From a bacterium (GTDB taxonomy: Bacteria > AUK180), in NCBI GenBank assembly GCA_030622125.1, contig JAUXGM010000012.1:1-25536 (forward strand): 25,536 nucleotides of DNA, in the 5' to 3' direction. Numbering within the stretch: position 1 is the stretch's first letter; each line of letters begins with the position of its first letter. Under the pieces are notes generated by a model. It worked only from the letters and a program-made list of their open reading frames with translations. It was not told where the DNA came from and ran no database searches. Of the stretch, positions 2,194 through 14,990 are shown one piece after another. The position numbers and the translations under genes are program-made.

Positions 2194-2642
2194 AGGTAAT
2201 TTTTCTCCGGTTCATCAAAGAATTTTCCATCAGGGGCGGCATCAAAATAATAGGAACTACCAACGCCATTACATCTTAATAACCTGTCGGATGAAAGAAA
2301 TATTCCTTTTAAAAAACCATATTTTTCAAAGGAAAGCTGAGTATAAAGTGAACAATGTGGATGGAACATACAGATGTCTTCATCCTGAGAAGAGATGAGA
2401 AACCGATACAATGTCAGAATTTTTTCTCCTAAAAATAGAAGTTCATTATAATCCATTAACTCCAATTTTTGGTATTTATAATGATATTCAGGTAAAATGG
2501 ATCCGTATTGATAGTTCGAGAGAAGGAAATCCATCTCGTTATCAATAGAAAATTCAAAGGAAAATATACCTGCTGAAACAATAAATAGCAACAGAATAAT
2601 TAAGAATAATTTACCATTCAATTTCTTTAATTTCTGCATCAT
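2181..2642 (-). CDS. YidD-like protein with an N-terminal signal/anchor extension
   Basis: Residues about 75-135 match the YidD family (membrane protein insertion efficiency factor): 'LYRFLISSQDEDICMFHPHCS', then 'YGFLKGIFLSSDRLLRCNG', corresponding to the canonical Y..LISP...C.F.PTCS.YA...G...G......RL.RC.P. All three family cysteines are present. Canonical YidD has roughly 70-90 residues, lies on the cytoplasmic face beside YidC and is encoded between rnpA and yidC. This one has 153 residues, begins with a hydrophobic segment (about 12-28, ending SAGIFS-FEF) like a signal peptide, and has a 45-residue extension before the domain. It may therefore act in the periplasm or as a membrane-anchored form. 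It overlaps the LolA-like gene by 32 bases. The family assignment is firm; location and role are inference. Confidence 0.8.
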   Translation of the reverse strand: MMQKLKKLNGKLFLIILLLFIVSAGIFSFEFSIDNEMDFLLSNYQYGSILPEYHYKYQKLELMDYNELLFLGEKILTLYRFLISSQDEDICMFHPHCSLYTQLSFEKYGFLKGIFLSSDRLLRCNGVGSSYYFDAAPDGKFFDEPEKNYLWEK

Positions 2643-3315
2643 CGGGAATCTTAAAGTTCTTTATTTTAATTGGAATTAAACCATCTGAAATGATATCGGA
2701 CATAACCATTGTTTCGGTTGAGATTAAATTTTTCTTATCATCATATTTTTTTGTTTTGATCATATTCGGCAGTTTTAAATTATTAATCAACTTATAACCG
2801 AAGATAAAGGTTTCTGATATCACTTTCTTCTTTCGGTTTGTTACTTTTATATACGAAATGTTACCATTGTTAGATACCTTTACAATATAGTATTGTATCA
2901 ATTTTTGTAATTTTTTTACCGGAATAAAATAAAAATATTTGCCATCTTTCTTTTTTACTACCTTTGAAACTACAAAGCCCAATTTTGAAAGTCCCATATC
3001 ATCTTCAAGTATCATCAGGAAAATAGAAAAAAGGGGAAGCATTTGTGGAAATTTTGAATTAATTATAAATGCTTTATTTGACTCGGGGTAGTATATTGTT
3101 AATTGTTTTCCCGAAAAGAACATTATCTGATGAAGAGGAGAGGTTATTTCAAGAAAAAGTCCTTGATCAAAATAAAAGAGCTTTCCTTCGGAAACATTAC
3201 TTTCTTTTGATGTTTTTACATCTATCTTTATGTCGGCAATCAATTCATTAAGTTCGGTTCCAAACGAAAATAGAGGAATCAGAATTAAGAGGGAAAGAAT
3301 AAATACCTTTTTTAT
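2611..3315 (-). CDS. LolA-like outer-membrane lipoprotein carrier protein with non-canonical start
   Basis: The product (234 residues if begun at 3315) matches the LolA/LolB-like fold family that shuttles lipoproteins or lipids through the periplasm. Evidence is a run of beta-strands with 'GKLFYFDQGLFLEITSPLHQIMFFSGKQLTIYYPESNKAFII', the family pattern G.l.f....f...y..P..q....dG..l.iY.Pe....... In frame upstream of the first usual start (TTG 3243, which would begin after the signal) is a good signal peptide, KKVFILSLLILIPLFSFG. Back to the in-frame TAG at 3327-3325 there is no ATG, GTG or TTG, only ATA (3315) and ATT (3321). An AGGAT lies about 6 bases before the ATA. The start is thus AUA/AUU, or an ATG lost by mutation or sequencing error. 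It lies 27 bases after the CsgG-like gene in the same operon. Confidence 0.75.
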   Translation of the reverse strand: MKKVFILSLLILIPLFSFGTELNELIADIKIDVKTSKESNVSEGKLFYFDQGLFLEITSPLHQIMFFSGKQLTIYYPESNKAFIINSKFPQMLPLFSIFLMILEDDMGLSKLGFVVSKVVKKKDGKYFYFIPVKKLQKLIQYYIVKVSNNGNISYIKVTNRKKKVISETFIFGYKLINNLKLPNMIKTKKYDDKKNLISTETMVMSDIISDGLIPIKIKNFKIPDDAEIKEIEW

Positions 3316-3342: not shown

Positions 3343-4203
3343 TTAATATCCAGCCGATGCACTAGTTCCATAGATAATTGCTGATATTATTAACCATGAT
3401 AAGCAGCCGTAGGTTGCTTGTTTTGTTTGGATCCTTTTCCCAGCCCTTTTATAATTTTTTGTATATATTGCTACATAATCCGCATCCTTTCCAATAAGTA
3501 AACTTGACGGTGGAGTGGGTTCAACAAGATATGCGAGACCAACCCCTAAAACACCAAGTAAACATCCCGATGTAAACCAAATAGTTTTATTTACATTCAC
3601 CTTTGCAGCAAGTGTAGATGCAGTAATAGGATCCATACTATATTTTGAATAACGATTTGATGAGATTTTTTCAGTTCCTCTTCCTTTGGACGTTTCTATT
3701 GTTGCCTTTACAGTTGTTGTCTCATCCGGTAATAAGGTTTTTAAAAGATCATTTACAAGACCTTTTACTACATCATCAATTTGTGAAAAATCCATTACTT
3801 TAATAGAATTTGACCATTCTATCTTTGAGTTTTCAATATTCACCATTCTTGCAGAAATTATATAAGTGTTGCCTAATTTACCGAGAGTTCCGATGATTAT
3901 ACTATTTACACCAAGAACCTTACCAACATTAACAGCACATTCAGCTGAGGAACATCCTAATGCTTGCTGTAGATTTTGCTCTTTTAAGATCGTTTCCATT
4001 GAACTTCTATCAACTACGATAAATTTCTGGACGGAAACAAGGGAATCTCTAAAAAGATCACTAATAATACTGGCACTATTCTTATCGGTTCCTTTTGGTT
4101 GAAAGTCCAATATTGCCATTGTTTTTTTCATTTCCACATCACTATAAATAAAAACAGCAAACATAAGAAACAAGATTTGTATCAAAAGAATTTTCTTATT
4201 CAT
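3343..4203 (-). CDS. CsgG-like envelope protein with two C-terminal hydrophobic segments
   Basis: The 286-residue product starts at the ATG at 4203 (GGAG about 8 bases upstream). It has a signal peptide (about 1-21), then a CsgG/LpoB-type domain (about 27-160): 'KTMAILDFQPKGTD', 'FIVVDRSSMETILKEQNLQQ', 'LGCSSAECAVNVGKVLGVNSIIIGTLGKLGNTYIISARMVN'. The two cysteines of the GC..AEC motif are shared with the paralogue at 13649-14965; the two domains are about two-thirds identical by eye. After a charged linker come two hydrophobic segments (about 205-228 and 262-280). CsgG-type domains act in envelope assembly or export, or as periplasmic regulators of penicillin-binding proteins. This group lacks a tested function as far as I know, so the exact job is open. 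It is the first gene of the minus-strand operon extending to 600. Confidence 0.8.
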   Translation of the reverse strand: MNKKILLIQILFLMFAVFIYSDVEMKKTMAILDFQPKGTDKNSASIISDLFRDSLVSVQKFIVVDRSSMETILKEQNLQQALGCSSAECAVNVGKVLGVNSIIIGTLGKLGNTYIISARMVNIENSKIEWSNSIKVMDFSQIDDVVKGLVNDLLKTLLPDETTTVKATIETSKGRGTEKISSNRYSKYSMDPITASTLAAKVNVNKTIWFTSGCLLGVLGVGLAYLVEPTPPSSLLIGKDADYVAIYTKNYKRAGKRIQTKQATYGCLSWLIISAIIYGTSASAGY

Positions 4204-4257: not shown

Positions 4258-4286
4258 TTGAATTTTAATAAAAATTGTGGTAAAAT
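4258..4286 (+). promoter_or_regulatory. Promoter of the kinase-miaB-mutS operon, probably leaderless
   Basis: TTGAAT (4258-4263) and TAAAAT (4281-4286) are separated by 17 bases. The ATG of the next gene is at 4293, only 6 bases after the -10, so transcription should start at or next to the A of the start codon. No Shine-Dalgarno sequence is visible. Together these suggest a leaderless mRNA. Confidence 0.5.
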
Positions 4287-4292
4287 AAAACT

Positions 4293-6140
4293 ATGGAAAA
4301 AAAGATAGAAATAAGAGAAAGTTTATTTACTAAAAAATTGCTATCCGTGTTTCGAATAAATGAGAATGATGAAAAACGTGTAATGTTTCTATTTCAAAAC
4401 CCTTTTTTGAAAACGAAAGAATATTTTAATTATTTTCAGAGAAGATTTAAAAAAATACAAGAAATTAATCTTCCCGAGTTCTTAAATCTATCTCATGGTA
4501 GTTTTAAAAAGATTCCCTATATTAGTTTTCAGGATGTATTTAAATATGACAGGACATTGGATAAAATGATACCTTCTTTAAGAGACAAAAGTGAACAGCA
4601 TCTGCATAAATTAATTACCAATTTCCTACTATATTTTGTGGAATTTCATAACGCAAATGAGATTGTAGGCAATGCTTCACCGTCACTTTTTATGCTTTCT
4701 GATTCGGGAATGCCGTATTTTATTGATTTTTTAAATGGCTGGGATAATGCAGACATATTTTCAAGAATTAAGGGGTTTTATACGGATGAACTTAGATTCG
4801 TGAGTCCCGAGCACCTAAATAATAAGAATATTACAATAAAATCAGATGTATTTGCCGTTGCACTTTTTTTAATATATGTGTTAAGTGGCGAATCTTACGA
4901 GATAAATGAAATAAAGAACAGTAAAATAAGGATACCTGATCAATTGACTGATTATAAAGAACTCATTGAAAAAATGCTTAAACCGGAACCGGAAAAAAGA
5001 ATATCGATCAATACTGTTTATGATGCATTTAAAATGGATAAATTCCCTATTGAATTTGCTTATTATGATGTGAATAAGATCGCTGATATTCATTGTGCCA
5101 GATGCAGTAAACCAATTCTTTCCACTGATGCGAGCAAGATAGGGAATGATTACTTTTGTAAAAATTGCATTGATGAATTAAGAAATAAAAAACCAAAAGA
5201 AAAAGAAAAAAAAGAAAAAGTAGGTCCATCAAAATGTTATTATCATTTCAAGAGAGATGCTGTGTATACTTGTTCAAATCCGGAATGTAAAAAACCGTTA
5301 TGCGAGGATTGTGCAGAAAAGATTGAAGGAAAAATATTTTGTCCGGAATGTGCTTATGAAGAAAGAAGAAAAATAGATAAAGAAAAAGCAAAAAAATTAA
5401 GAGAGGAGAGAAAGGCGGAGATCGAAAGAGCAAAACAGCGTAAAAAAAAGACGGAAATAGAAGAAAAAGAACCGTTAAAGCAGGATGAGGAGGATTTTTT
5501 TAAATCCATTCAAAAACAAACGGATAACAATGATTTCGGTGATATTTCTCAAACAATAACAGAAGGACTTGATAATTCTAAATATATTAGAACAGAAAAA
5601 AAAGGTAAAAAAAACCTTCCTTTTTTTATAATTATTCCCGTTATTGTGATCCTAATTTTGGTCATGTTAATTGCTTTTCATAAAAAAAATTATGATACAA
5701 AAGAAATAAAGAAAACACACAAACTCTTTCTCAAAGCAAAAACCATATCGGATAAGGTAAGTTATGGCAAAAGACTTTCACGACTATACATAAAAAATAC
5801 TAATGACCCCGAACACAACGAGAAAGCGATCTTAACATTAGACAACCTCCTTTCTACAGGGAATGTTTCGGACTTTGATAGAAAAGATATTTATACACAA
5901 AAAATAGAATATTTAAAAGATCAGAAAAACTATGCGGAGATCATAAAATTGTATGATATAATGGAAAAAGAGTTCAGAAATGACACTACCTTATATCCAA
6001 TGATATTACTTGATAAAGCCAAATTTTATGAAACAATAAACAGAAGCAAAGCAATAAAAATATATAATCTAATAATGAAAAAATATAAAGGGACACCTTA
6101 TGGTTCTAAGGCATATAAGGCAAGAAAAAAACTAAAATAA
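4293..6140 (+). CDS. Pseudokinase with zinc-finger pair, one transmembrane helix and TPR ectodomain
   Basis: The product has 615 residues. Residues about 1-245 have a degenerate protein kinase fold: the C-lobe keeps 'RFVSPEHL' (APE-like, 169-175), 'SDVFAVALFLIYVLSGE' (184-200) and 'EKRIS', plus a DFL in place of DFG (145-147). The glycine loop and lysine are not evident, and the HRD..K..N segment reads VGNASPSLF, so catalytic Asp, Lys and Asn are gone. Two zinc sites follow: C268/C271/C289/C292, then a B-box-like cluster C315/H318/C327/C332/C337/C340/C350/C353. Next come a charged coiled region, one transmembrane helix (about 441-462) and an extracytoplasmic TPR-like tail to the end. The kinase gene starts at the stop codon (TAATG, 1-base overlap), so the two are tightly coupled. 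A regulatory or scaffold partner of that kinase is likely (inference). Confidence 0.85.
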   Translation: MEKKIEIRESLFTKKLLSVFRINENDEKRVMFLFQNPFLKTKEYFNYFQRRFKKIQEINLPEFLNLSHGSFKKIPYISFQDVFKYDRTLDKMIPSLRDKSEQHLHKLITNFLLYFVEFHNANEIVGNASPSLFMLSDSGMPYFIDFLNGWDNADIFSRIKGFYTDELRFVSPEHLNNKNITIKSDVFAVALFLIYVLSGESYEINEIKNSKIRIPDQLTDYKELIEKMLKPEPEKRISINTVYDAFKMDKFPIEFAYYDVNKIADIHCARCSKPILSTDASKIGNDYFCKNCIDELRNKKPKEKEKKEKVGPSKCYYHFKRDAVYTCSNPECKKPLCEDCAEKIEGKIFCPECAYEERRKIDKEKAKKLREERKAEIERAKQRKKKTEIEEKEPLKQDEEDFFKSIQKQTDNNDFGDISQTITEGLDNSKYIRTEKKGKKNLPFFIIIPVIVILILVMLIAFHKKNYDTKEIKKTHKLFLKAKTISDKVSYGKRLSRLYIKNTNDPEHNEKAILTLDNLLSTGNVSDFDRKDIYTQKIEYLKDQKNYAEIIKLYDIMEKEFRNDTTLYPMILLDKAKFYETINRSKAIKIYNLIMKKYKGTPYGSKAYKARKKLK

Positions 6141-7564
6141 TGGAGAACGATCTACTCTTTGGCAAATATATAATAAAAGGTAAGCTTGGTCAGGGTGGGA
6201 TGGCGATTGTATATCACGCTTTTGATCCGACACTTCAAAGAGATGTTGCGATAAAAGCCCTTCTTCCAAAATTTAAAAATAACACAAACATTGTTAAAAT
6301 GTTTATCCGTGAAGGTCAGTTAATGGCTCAATTGGATAATCCGCACATCGTACAGGTTTATGAAAATGCTAAATATAAAGATTTCTTTTTTTATGTTATG
6401 GAATATATTGGGGGGAAAACATTAGATAAACTTATAAAAAACGGACTTTCTTATGCCGAAAACGAGGTTATATTTAGAGAGATATTAAAAGCACTTATCT
6501 ATATTCACAAGAAAAATATACTTCATTTGGATCTAAAACCATCCAATATTCTTGTTGAAAGTTCAGGTAATGTAAAGATCACCGACTTTGGTATCGGTGC
6601 GGATATAACAAAGGAAATGATATCAAAAAATGCTGTTGTCGGCACGATCAAGTATATTGCTCCGGAACAAATAACCGGTGACGAGATAAATTTCTATACC
6701 GACATATATCAACTTGGAGTTATCCTCTACCAAATGTACAGCGGCAATATCCCTTTTGAAGGAACAAATGAAGAGGTTATGAGGCAAAAACTAAATGAGG
6801 AACCGCAACCACTTAATATGTCCAATATTCTTGTTCCGGATTATATTTCAAGCATCTGTACAAGAATGCTTAGAATAAACTCTACTGATAGATATAAGAG
6901 TGTAGATGAGATTTTAGAAGATATGGATAATTTAAAATCTTACACTTCATCTTATGAAAGTGAACGTGCTGAGGTTTACGAAGCAGAAAAAAATAGAGTT
7001 TATACAGCTGATGCAATTTCGAACAATGTAAAAAAAGAAAGAAAAAAAAAGAAAAAAGAAAAATTCTTTGTAAAGATCTTTATCATATTTATTTTACTTC
7101 TTATCGGTTTTGTACTTCTTATCCATTTTGCAGAAAAGTGCGAGCGGATACCGATCATAAATAAGTTATTATTTCAATCTAAAAGCTCGATTGTTGCCAA
7201 TTATACCATTTATAAATATGATGATAGCATAGAATTTGCTCAATACTGTATAGATCATTTTAAATACAAACAAGCTGAAGAAATATTGCTTCCGTTAAAA
7301 GAAAGATACCCGAAAAAAAGATACATTATCTTAAAAATGCTTTTTGATATTTATTATTCGTATAACGATGAAAAATTTATTACTATAAGCAAAGAAATAT
7401 TAAAGATCGCTCCCAATTATGAGAGATACTTTTTAAATAAAAGACTCGGTGATTTCTATAGTGAAAAAAATGAGGTAAAACTTTCAAGAATATATTACAA
7501 TCAAGCAATAAAATATGCACCCAATGATGAACTAAAAAAAGCGATCTATAAGAAAATAAAATGA
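6140..7564 (+). CDS. Transmembrane PknB-type Ser/Thr protein kinase with TPR ectodomain
   Basis: The 474-residue product has a cytoplasmic Hanks-type kinase domain (about 8-265): glycine loop GQGGMAIVY (17-25), VAIK lysine K39, alpha-C glutamate E58, catalytic D131, K133 and N136, DFG 149-151, APE 174-176, and T169 in the activation/P+1 region. The usual HRD reads HLD, so it is a non-RD-type kinase and may not need activation-loop phosphorylation; catalytic residues are otherwise complete. A basic stretch leads to a single transmembrane helix (about 309-330) and an extracytoplasmic part with TPR-like repeats ('YKQAEEILLPLKERYPKKRYI', 'SRIYYNQAIKYAPNDE'). Topology matches the adjacent pseudokinase, suggesting a receptor pair sensing an envelope signal. 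The miaB start overlaps its stop (ATGA). Substrates are unknown. Confidence 0.9.
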   Translation: MENDLLFGKYIIKGKLGQGGMAIVYHAFDPTLQRDVAIKALLPKFKNNTNIVKMFIREGQLMAQLDNPHIVQVYENAKYKDFFFYVMEYIGGKTLDKLIKNGLSYAENEVIFREILKALIYIHKKNILHLDLKPSNILVESSGNVKITDFGIGADITKEMISKNAVVGTIKYIAPEQITGDEINFYTDIYQLGVILYQMYSGNIPFEGTNEEVMRQKLNEEPQPLNMSNILVPDYISSICTRMLRINSTDRYKSVDEILEDMDNLKSYTSSYESERAEVYEAEKNRVYTADAISNNVKKERKKKKKEKFFVKIFIIFILLLIGFVLLIHFAEKCERIPIINKLLFQSKSSIVANYTIYKYDDSIEFAQYCIDHFKYKQAEEILLPLKERYPKKRYIILKMLFDIYYSYNDEKFITISKEILKIAPNYERYFLNKRLGDFYSEKNEVKLSRIYYNQAIKYAPNDELKKAIYKKIK

Positions 7565-8889
7565 GTTCAAAATCCTTTTTTATTATAAATTATGGCTGTC
7601 AAATGAATTTTTTAGAATCACAAAAGATCGCCGGGCAATTGGAAGGAATAGGATATTCGTATGCACCGGACAAAATGAATGCCGACTATGTCGTTTTAAA
7701 TACCTGTGCCGTAAGAGAAACCGCAGAAAGAAAAATATATGGAACAATCGGTCTTATTAAAAAATATGGAAAGTCTGGCGTGAAAATTGCAGTTGGAGGA
7801 TGCGTGACCCAGGTAAAGGGAAAAGAGATATATGATAGGTATAAACAAGTGGATATAATTTTCGGAAGCAGGAACAAAGAGATGCTGCCTCAATTTTTTG
7901 AAAGTGCCGATAAAGGTAAGCGGATCTTGAATTTAGATGAAATTGTAAATGAGGATATTGAATATGCCCTTTCCGCAAAAAGAGATTCCAAATATAGTGC
8001 TTTTGTCGAGATAATGAAAGGATGTAATAATTTTTGTAGTTATTGCATCGTTCCTTATGCTCGTGGCAGGGAAATTTCAATTCCACCGGACAATATTAAA
8101 GATAAGATCGTTGGGCTAATAGATAAAGGCTATAAAGAATTTACCCTACTTGGACAAAATGTTAATTCTTACGGCAAAAAATTTACTGATGATAAAGACA
8201 GAAACTACCGTTTTTTAGATCTGTTAAATGACCTTGAAGGGATCAATGGTATTTATCGTTTGCGTTTTATTACTTCTCATCCGAAGGATTTTAGTTTTGA
8301 GCTTGCCGATCTTATGGCAACCTCAAATATTATTGCCCATAGTTTGCATTTACCGATCCAATCCGGATCAAATAAGATATTGAAGCTTATGAATAGGGGA
8401 TATTCAAAAGAAGATTATATTGAAAAGATATCATATCTAAGGAGTAAAATCCCTGATATTGCTCTTTCAACCGATATGATATTTGGTTTTCCCTCGGAAG
8501 ATGAAAGGGATTTTCTTGAATCAATAGATATATTAAAAAAAATCAACTACCAAATAGCGTTTTTATTCCAATTTTCAGTAAGAACCGGCACAGCAGCAGC
8601 AAAGATGGAGGAAAAATTCATTGATAATAAAACAAAATTGGAACGTCTTCAATATGCCATTGATTTTCAAAACAAGATATCTTACGAAAGATCGAAGAAC
8701 TACATAGGCAATATTGAAGATCTTCTATTCTATTCTTCGGATAAAACCGGCAAAAAGCTAATGGGAAGAGATACTCACAATATGATCGTTGTTGCAGATG
8801 GGAAAAAAAAGGATATCGGTAACATTAAAAAAGTGAAAATAAACGATGGGAATTCCTACACATTATTTGGAAGTCAGTTGAATGAATAG
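7561..8889 (+). CDS. miaB: tRNA-2-methylthio-N6-dimethylallyladenosine synthase
   Basis: MiaB is a radical-SAM methylthiotransferase that adds a methylthio group to isopentenyladenosine at position 37 of tRNAs reading UNN codons. The 442-residue length is typical. The N-terminal domain carries the three auxiliary [4Fe-4S] ligands C13 (YGCQMN), C49 (NTCAVRE) and C81 (GGCVTQ). The radical-SAM cluster motif C155-x3-C159-x2-C162 sits in GCNNFCSYCIVPYARGRE. Typical segments LLGQNVNSYG, RFITSHP and HLPIQSGS..IL..M.R.Y follow, and a TRAM domain occupies about the last 65 residues. It shares an ATGA overlap with the kinase gene and an 8-base overlap with the next gene. CDK5RAP1 and MtaB belong to the same superfamily, but YGCQMN and the overall pattern favour MiaB. 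Confidence 0.95.
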   Translation: MSSKSFFIINYGCQMNFLESQKIAGQLEGIGYSYAPDKMNADYVVLNTCAVRETAERKIYGTIGLIKKYGKSGVKIAVGGCVTQVKGKEIYDRYKQVDIIFGSRNKEMLPQFFESADKGKRILNLDEIVNEDIEYALSAKRDSKYSAFVEIMKGCNNFCSYCIVPYARGREISIPPDNIKDKIVGLIDKGYKEFTLLGQNVNSYGKKFTDDKDRNYRFLDLLNDLEGINGIYRLRFITSHPKDFSFELADLMATSNIIAHSLHLPIQSGSNKILKLMNRGYSKEDYIEKISYLRSKIPDIALSTDMIFGFPSEDERDFLESIDILKKINYQIAFLFQFSVRTGTAAAKMEEKFIDNKTKLERLQYAIDFQNKISYERSKNYIGNIEDLLFYSSDKTGKKLMGRDTHNMIVVADGKKKDIGNIKKVKINDGNSYTLFGSQLNE

Positions 8890-13648: not shown

Positions 13649-14965
13649 CTATTTTTCCAATAATGCTCTTAGGTCAAAATTATATCCCAATCTAATCGTC
13701 ATTCCATGAAAAATATCAATAAAATTTGTATCATAATCATAAAAATTCACATAGAGAAGGTTAAAATCATATCCCAATAAGAGATATGGTCCGTATTTTT
13801 TCATTACTGCACCAATGCCGATATTGCCGCATAATGATAAACCATAAGGAGATTCACCGATATATGTATCCGGTTCGTCATATATCATATAGGCAAGATT
13901 AATATCAAATTCATACATAAATCCGACGGGGAATTCACTTTTTTTATCTTTATAAATATCTCCGAATCGTAATGAAAAACCGATTCCGGGTCCATAATAA
14001 TTATCTTCTCCACTATAATATGTATAATTGATTTCTTTCCACACAAAATATATCATATCAAATCTGTTTTTTGATTGAGCCCTCAGTGAAAATATATAGT
14101 CGATAAAACTAATATCCGTTTCATATACAGAATAAGTATAGCTTGCACCGGTAGAATCCTCATAATTCATTTTATCACCTTCATTAAACCAAAACGATCT
14201 ATTATGAATGCCGAAATAAAGGAAAGTCCAGTAAAGTCCGAATTTAAAATCAAAATAACCGGGCTTCATTGAGTACCAGTATGTAATATCGGAAGTATTA
14301 TCATAATATGTTTCTTTAAATCTAAAAGAGGGCGAAAATCCAAATTGCAGATCTATACCTACATTGGGATATTTACTTTTTTTGCGAGCAGGGATAACTT
14401 TTATCTCCTTCTTTTTTTCAGGTTGTGGTTCAATAGTTTTTGGAACTTCTATCGGCACTATTTCTTTAATAGGTAATTTCTCTTTAAATTCCTCTTTGAA
14501 GATGGTTTTTAAAAGATTGTTCACCATTTTTTCAATGACACTATCTATCTGTCCGAAATTAGTTAGTTTGGCAGAATTTGTCCATTCAATTTGGGCATTT
14601 TCTATATTTACCATTTTTGCCGATACAATATAAACATTACCGAGTTTTCCCAAGCTACCGATAATAGAATAATTAACACCAAGGATCTTTCCTAACTGAA
14701 CCGCACATTCGGCAGAATTACAACCCAGTGACTGCTGAAGGTTTTGCTCGGTAAGAATCTCTTTCATAGATTCTCTATCAACTACGATGAATTTTTTTGA
14801 TGAAAAAAGATAGTTTCTAAAAAGATCGCTAATAATACTTGCAGACGATTTATCAACCCCTTTCGGTTCAAATTCCATAATAGCAACAGATTTAGTGGGC
14901 TGTGCAAAAGATAGAAACCCCGATAAAATAAAAACAAAAATTGCAAAAAACTTGATTGTTTTCAT
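13649..14965 (-). CDS. CsgG-like protein fused to a predicted outer-membrane beta-barrel
   Basis: The 438-residue product uses the ATG at 14965 (AAGGAG 6 bases upstream); an in-frame GTG at 14971 overlaps that site and is unlikely. A signal peptide (about 1-21) precedes a CsgG-like domain (about 25-160) with 'SVAIMEFEPKGVDKSSASIISDLFR', 'FIVVDRESM' and 'LGCNSAECAVQLGKILGVN', closely matching the 3343-4203 product. A Pro/Lys/Glu-rich linker (about 163-195) leads to some 240 residues of alternating aromatic and polar short strands ('YFDFKFGLYWTFLYFGIHNRSFWF', ending in GMTIRLGYNFDL), typical of an outer-membrane beta-barrel. The fusion suggests an outer-membrane-tethered CsgG-type periplasmic module. 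The function is unknown to me. It has its own promoter at 14991-15019. Confidence 0.85.
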   Translation of the reverse strand: MKTIKFFAIFVFILSGFLSFAQPTKSVAIMEFEPKGVDKSSASIISDLFRNYLFSSKKFIVVDRESMKEILTEQNLQQSLGCNSAECAVQLGKILGVNYSIIGSLGKLGNVYIVSAKMVNIENAQIEWTNSAKLTNFGQIDSVIEKMVNNLLKTIFKEEFKEKLPIKEIVPIEVPKTIEPQPEKKKEIKVIPARKKSKYPNVGIDLQFGFSPSFRFKETYYDNTSDITYWYSMKPGYFDFKFGLYWTFLYFGIHNRSFWFNEGDKMNYEDSTGASYTYSVYETDISFIDYIFSLRAQSKNRFDMIYFVWKEINYTYYSGEDNYYGPGIGFSLRFGDIYKDKKSEFPVGFMYEFDINLAYMIYDEPDTYIGESPYGLSLCGNIGIGAVMKKYGPYLLLGYDFNLLYVNFYDYDTNFIDIFHGMTIRLGYNFDLRALLEK

Positions 14966-14990
14966 AAACACTCCTTTTTTTTTAATTTTA

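Follow-up and report, generated by a model that had tools for sequence, protein, structure and literature searches.

In eukaryotes, a dead kinase fold can allosterically switch an active partner, as in the HER3-EGFR and STRAD-LKB1 pairs. In plants, EFR activates BAK1 non-catalytically, one receptor kinase acting on its partner (PMC11259431). In bacteria, a 2025 review describes pseudokinases as largely unexplored experimentally and the functions of conserved families as unknown, and it makes no mention of a zinc finger or a TPR on a bacterial pseudokinase (PMC12599244). MviN of mycobacteria (ActPs3) is a membrane pseudokinase with all motifs degraded and is functionally linked to the kinase PknB, which phosphorylates the pseudokinase tail; the tail then recruits FhaA (PMC12599244). 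MviN is a larger transmembrane protein with no zinc fingers, its pseudokinase domain comes late in the chain, and its operon does not contain the kinase (PMC12599244). EssB/YukC, from type VIIb secretion, combines a kinase-fold domain and a membrane anchor in one protein and serves as a scaffold (PMC9600267, PMC12599244). Inhibition by pseudokinases is also known (PMC12599244). Finally, active PASTA-type kinases, such as PknB, StkP and Stk1 (PrkC), carry an N-terminal kinase domain, a charged juxtamembrane linker, one transmembrane (TM) helix and a repeat ectodomain.

The locus considered here comes from AUK180, a GTDB phylum also named Candidatus Uvuciota and found in deep-sea and marine hydrothermal sediments (PMC11382960). 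Seven genomes of the class were compared, among them the MAG "AUK180", to whose family the present genome belongs; the sequences are metagenome-assembled contigs and fragmented drafts. In the window, that is, the whole stretch of 25,536 nucleotides that was analysed, two genes follow each other head to tail on the + strand, ORF1 (4293-6140, 615 aa) and ORF2 (6140-7564, 474 aa). Base 6140 is common to the TAA of ORF1 and the ATG of ORF2, and the coordinates are exactly those at which the first-pass annotation had placed two adjacent genes with a one-base overlap. Each of the seven genomes (this one, four others of its family and two of a sister family) encodes an ORF1, although the homologues are only 22-44% identical to the ORF1 of this genome. 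ORF1 and ORF2 stand side by side in unchanged order in 7/7 genomes, over the two families. The conserved neighbourhood that had been anticipated is indeed observed: far from never co-occurring with a kinase, ORF1 homologues always stand beside the same kinase gene. Outside the class, the full ORF1 architecture was not found in a search of 386 genomes in which up to three candidates were scored per genome; proteins there matched at most one of two parts, the kinase or the finger. With the ORF1 of this genome alone as query against genome contigs no match was obtained, and with four homologues four MAG contigs were retrieved.

Directly 3′ of the pair lies a gene for a MiaB-type tRNA methylthiotransferase (7561..8889, +; UPF0004/Radical_SAM), in all six genomes whose contig extends that far. 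MiaB is thus a conserved neighbour, the function of which is probably unrelated to that of the kinase pair. It is followed by TPR/SPOR, MutS and acetyltransferase genes in 5/5 genomes of the family to which this genome belongs. On the 5′ side, the gene upstream of the pair is not the same in the two families. In the window, this neighbour is divergent and encodes one of two secreted CsgG/LpoB-like paralogues (3343-4203 and 13649-14971, both on the - strand) with nearly identical N-terminal halves; it is not kept at this place in relatives. Further upstream, two adjacent genes (600-2193, -) encode secreted proteins, one of which is TPR-like; their C-terminal membrane parts ('PG.G....G', weak DUF5683) resemble each other, and a LolA-like protein is encoded nearby (2611-3243, -). 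A candidate promoter 5′ of ORF1 (4258-4286) was discarded, its match to the consensus being weak and such matches being hardly commoner than in shuffled sequences.

ORF1 is organized as a pseudokinase domain, zinc fingers, a long helix, a TM helix and a TPR-like ectodomain (4293..6140, +). The pseudokinase domain (residues 1-252; 4293..5048, +) comprises beta1-3, alphaC and a full C-lobe, as judged from an AlphaFold model, structure alignment and profile matches to true kinases. In the model, built from an alignment of seven sequences, residues 1-250 have pLDDT values mostly of 75-97 and adopt a two-lobe kinase fold. Using VIA-align, this model superimposes on solved kinases, including S. aureus Stk1 and PknA, with Z scores of ~22 over ~240 residues at 2.8-3.1 Å. 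Kinases fill the list of fold-search matches, a result that bears on the kinase domain and not on the fingers or the ectodomain alone. Sequence comparisons point in the same direction. Pfam Pkinase matches all seven family members (best E 3.3e-16); the ORF1 of this genome taken alone gives 3.2e-6, in the C-lobe only and slightly under the curated cut-off. A profile of the family reaches 3e-10 against solved kinases and up to 4e-17 against true kinases of many phyla. The kinase fold, for which the first-pass annotation had proposed a fold prediction, is therefore borne out.

Whether the domain "lacks all catalytic motifs", as had been written, calls for a more nuanced answer. The G-loop and the catalytic Asp are absent from all homologues. 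In the family of this genome, the beta3 Lys and the catalytic-loop Asn are lost and HRD reads VGN. FGL takes the place of HRD in the sister family, where an IK pair, with a beta3-like Lys, is still found in beta3. The Asp of DFG also persists in most members (I-D-F in this genome). Hence, the claim goes a little too far, and the IK pair of the sister family indicates that the loss was stepwise. Structural motifs of the C-lobe are retained, namely SPE, SDV[FY] (SDVF here) and PEKR with a late Arg. A predicted kinase fold, the loss of the beta3 Lys (own family) and of the catalytic Asp (all members) and an altered DFG make ORF1 a putative pseudokinase. Of bacterial pseudokinases, 42 families have been described, ActPs1-3, GLW, CP1, DYD and DLHK among them. 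The VGN/FGL replacement differs from GLW and the architecture of ORF1 does not appear in the 2025 review (PMC12599244), but its kinase domain may still belong to one of these families.

The dead domain is under strong purifying selection. When the two closest genomes (G001 and G004) are compared, the pseudokinase domain has a dN/dS of 0.037, a rough ratio as it derives from 5.5 non-synonymous differences in 256 codons; the active kinase domain has 0.066, and MutS and MiaB have 0.06-0.07. In the TM-plus-ectodomain parts of the two proteins the ratio rises to 0.19 (ORF1, 0.188) and 0.33. With such a value the dead domain is not decaying, which rules out that ORF1 is a pseudogene on its way to loss. 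Between families, ORF1 diverged several times faster than ORF2. In a tree, pseudokinases and partner kinases, seven of each, separate into two clades with SH-aLRT support of 99 apiece, and the division by family recurs in both, so the pair is older than the families. A pseudokinase profile finds the partner ORF2 as best-scoring active kinase in 6/7 genomes, and it is plausible that ORF1 arose from a tandem duplication of ORF2. However, the tree does not put the pseudokinases beside the partner kinases, the branches being long and the fork remaining open.

The pseudokinase domain is followed by two cysteine-rich modules. Finger 1 (C268-x2-C271...C289-x2-C292; 5094..5168, +) has invariant ligands. 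Finger 2 (C315-C353; 5235..5351, +) is B-box-like, with eight ligands. C268, C271, C289, C292, C315, H318, C327, C332, C337, C340 and C350 are invariant in 7/7 sequences and position C353 is Cys in 6/7. Finger 2 matches the Pfam B-box (zf-B_box, PF00643) in six of the seven homologues with E <0.01, one of them above the curated cut-off; the copy of this genome falls below threshold with all ligands present. In each of these six genomes, it is the only B-box match. The B-box reading had already been put forward and is strengthened by these matches. In the sister family (G005/G006), finger 1 is complete (CxxH..CxxC..CxxC..CxxC), so that both fingers are full B-box-like units, and a finger-2 profile matches finger 1 of that family with E values of 1e-8 to 4e-8. 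From these sequences, the zinc module looks to be derived from tandem B-boxes, finger 1 of the family studied here being the apparent remnant of a B-box-like finger, half of which was lost. The "pair of zinc sites" of the first-pass annotation stands as two modules, C268-C292 and C315-C353, but is better counted as a CxxC/CxxC site plus an eight-ligand B-box-like module; each ORF1 is predicted to bind probably up to three zinc ions. Among the loci compared, the best finger-2 match outside the class is in an unrelated phylum (L008:352-1680, -), in a protein with a B-box-like finger, a TM helix and a beta-rich domain (DUF4097-like by eye) and no kinase domain. As finger and TM helix are combined there too, the finger is probably a general bacterial juxtamembrane module.

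Beyond the fingers, the AlphaFold model predicts a long charged helix (residues 351-390; 5343..5462, +) leading to a low-confidence, probably disordered linker (391-443; 5463..5621, +; pLDDT <50 for 391-447). Next come a TM helix (444-462; 5622..5678, +), with a mean hydropathy of 3.47 over 19 residues and the same position in 7/7 proteins, and a TPR-like helical ectodomain (470-615; 5700..6137, +), predicted to be periplasmic, with helix pairs in the model and TPR_14 matches in 3/7. Within the linker, the motif F415-x5-T421-[IV]-[TS]-E424 (5535..5564, +), a candidate phosphosite, occurs in 5/5 members of the family; F415, T421 and E424 are invariant there and the surrounding residues vary. 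The motif was also looked for in the ORF1 of the sister family and is absent from it. Each of the seven genomes has 5-8 FHA matches and a single PP2C match, away from the pair, so that parts for phospho-Thr signalling are present throughout. Since the PP2C lies elsewhere, a PrkC/PrpC-like kinase-phosphatase locus is ruled out at ORF1-ORF2. Such an arrangement seems to exist on another contig, C89 of genome G000 (L057:2675-5576), where the sole PP2C match of the genome is directly 5′ of the gene for a kinase of 718 aa whose ectodomain is repeat-like. The same contig encodes a 639-aa Hanks kinase (L057:10065-11984) with TPR-like repeats and what looks by eye like a two-component receiver domain; its neighbours are polysaccharide genes, and other family members have matching kinases of about this size.

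ORF2 (6140..7564, +; 474 aa) is a PknB/StkP-type kinase with a TM helix and a TPR-like ectodomain (Pkinase E 3.5e-52); its closest solved structures are StkP (1.2e-45) and PknB (2.5e-36). In the kinase domain (residues 9-265; 6164..6934, +), K39, E58, H129, D131, K133, N136 and D149 are retained in 7/7 proteins. With a kinase domain and all catalytic residues in every member, ORF2 belongs to the Hanks-type Ser/Thr kinases. A low-confidence linker joins the kinase domain to the TM helix (310-328; 7067..7123, +; hydropathy and model), after which comes the TPR-like helical ectodomain (338-473; 7151..7558, +; model, TPR_8 in 4/7). The matching topology noticed earlier in the two proteins, with a kinase fold, one helix and a TPR-like ectodomain, is thus confirmed. 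From their cytoplasmic kinase folds and from hydropathy, both proteins are predicted to be N-in. The ectodomains resemble each other (hhalign 93%), a likeness part of which may be general TPR similarity.

As a rule, phosphorylation of the activation loop controls RD kinases but not non-RD kinases. ORF2 is of the second kind: its catalytic motif reads H129-L130-D131 (6524..6532, +), and Leu or Met replaces the Arg in 7/7 partner kinases (HLD/HMD), against 2/23 of the other kinases listed from the same genomes. Two further sister-family kinases of ~650 aa (L034 in G006 and L042 in G005) are also non-RD (HLD). In addition, no activation-loop Thr is conserved at the PknB positions in the seven partner kinases, whereas the TMT-GT kinases of the same genomes have it. 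ORF2 is therefore not expected to activate itself by loop autophosphorylation. The HLD/HMD motif and the lack of a conserved loop Thr pair also exclude that ORF2 is PknB itself. It is not a PASTA kinase either (PrkC/Stk1/PknB, NF033483; 278.6 bits against a cut-off of 450, over residues 4-305 only), its ectodomain being TPR-like. Matches to the phage-defence kinase MAD6 and to other NCBIfam models, far below cut-off, reflect generic kinase similarity.

Considering these properties, we favour, with a probability of roughly 45%, a model in which ORF1 and ORF2, each as a subunit and presumably in physical association, together make up a single envelope-sensing receptor kinase. The two proteins would be made together and would associate through their ectodomains and their kinase-fold domains. 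ORF2 would be in charge of catalysis, and its active state would be set by contact with the pseudokinase domain, under the control of ligands of the TPR ectodomains. Docking of a substrate or a reader would fall to ORF1, through its zinc fingers, helix and linker, and the T421-x-[TS]-E motif would be a likely phosphosite of the ORF2 kinase; a link between phosphorylated T421 and an FHA protein would resemble that between MviN and FhaA (PMC12599244). Strict pairing, paired clades, dN/dS, the non-RD partner, the similar ectodomains, the top score of the partner with the pseudokinase profile in 6/7 genomes and the EFR-BAK1 precedent (PMC11259431) argue for this model. So do positions R10/L33/D76, which form the PknB dimer: the partner kinase has R/L/D there in the sister family, and K/L/E in the family of this genome. 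The pseudokinase would probably be a regulatory subunit, and probably an activating one, the main reason being that for a non-RD ORF2 without loop Thr control by a partner is likelier than self-activation. Together with the strong selection on the dead domain, this makes the activation or recruitment of ORF2 by ORF1 more likely; like the first-pass annotation, we infer such a role for ORF1 and the binding of a partner by its fingers. Several observations count against the model. The two other HLD kinases of the sister family have no known pseudokinase partner, and the T421 motif is absent from that family. Moreover, the PknB dimer residues are not clearly retained in the pseudokinase. A PknB-like back-to-back heterodimer is thus not supported, and the N-lobe of ORF2 could equally drive homodimers.

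Other explanations may be envisaged. ORF1 may be a substrate and docking platform of ORF2 rather than its activator, in the manner of MviN; phosphorylation of T421 in the linker would recruit an FHA protein, or the fingers their binding partner. Conservation of the Thr motif within an otherwise poorly conserved, low-confidence linker, the FHA matches of all seven genomes and the phosphorylated tail of MviN (PMC12599244) would agree with such a role. We nevertheless hold it to be somewhat unlikely, since the sister family has kept the pair without the motif, the non-RD character of the partner kinase would be left unexplained, and MviN is encoded apart from its kinase whereas the genes of ORF1 and ORF2 always touch. 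It may also be imagined that ORF1 is inhibitory, keeping ORF2 off or competing for the ligand of the ectodomain until a signal releases it. The shared topology and similar ectodomains fit competition as well as activation, and pseudokinases that inhibit have precedents, as mentioned above. However, a non-RD kinase without its own loop switch would need an activator more than an inhibitor, and a dead kinase fold more constrained than the ectodomain (0.037 against 0.188) should be more than a spacer. Inhibition therefore seems improbable.

Still less probable is mere co-transcription of ORF1 and ORF2 as receptors independent of each other. In its favour, MiaB, TPR/SPOR and MutS, downstream of the pair, have the same orientation too, and surely not all of them serve one pathway. 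Against it, the pair is kept in both families despite the differing upstream gene, the two proteins have matching topology and similar ectodomains, and their genes overlap or touch. As for another catalytic activity carried by the kinase fold of ORF1, as in SelO or SidJ, the DFG Asp of most members and the beta3-like Lys of the sister family could be taken as its traces. But the family of this genome has neither beta3 Lys nor G-loop, and the residues invariant in 7/7 of the domain include no clear active-site set, which makes this explanation very improbable.

Returning to the receptor kinase with two subunits, its differences from known systems may be summarized. ORF2 shares the layout of the PASTA-type kinases and differs from them by its TPR-like ectodomain, its non-RD motif, the absence of an adjoining PP2C gene and its obligate pseudokinase neighbour. 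Unlike that of MviN, the pseudokinase domain of ORF1 is N-terminal, carries zinc fingers and is encoded by a gene that touches a kinase gene. EssB/YukC, for its part, belongs to a secretion system and has neither fingers nor partner kinase. A search of open-licence papers returned nothing relevant on bacterial pseudokinases with zinc fingers or TPR, or on a non-RD/pseudokinase pair. The idea of a non-catalytic fold switching its active partner likens the locus to EFR-BAK1 (PMC11259431). HER3-EGFR, STRAD-LKB1 and EFR-BAK1 are nonetheless eukaryotic and have unrelated ectodomains, and for ORF1 and ORF2 the mechanism is a deduction. By analogy, we tentatively put forward that the locus is to bacteria what HER3-EGFR or EFR-BAK1 is to eukaryotes: a dead TM kinase with a B-box, a module best known from eukaryotes, would allosterically switch on a co-encoded non-RD kinase, and the two would be conserved throughout the candidate phylum as an obligate pair; the odds are, in our estimation, rather against it.

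ORF1 and ORF2 suggest that receptor kinase pairs of one dead and one live member, known from animals and plants, have a bacterial version. A strict dead/live pair, in which the live kinase seemingly has no loop-phosphorylation switch, would provide a clean place to ask whether bacterial pseudokinases activate allosterically. Both genes are of small size, and it should be possible to express the cytoplasmic parts of their products.
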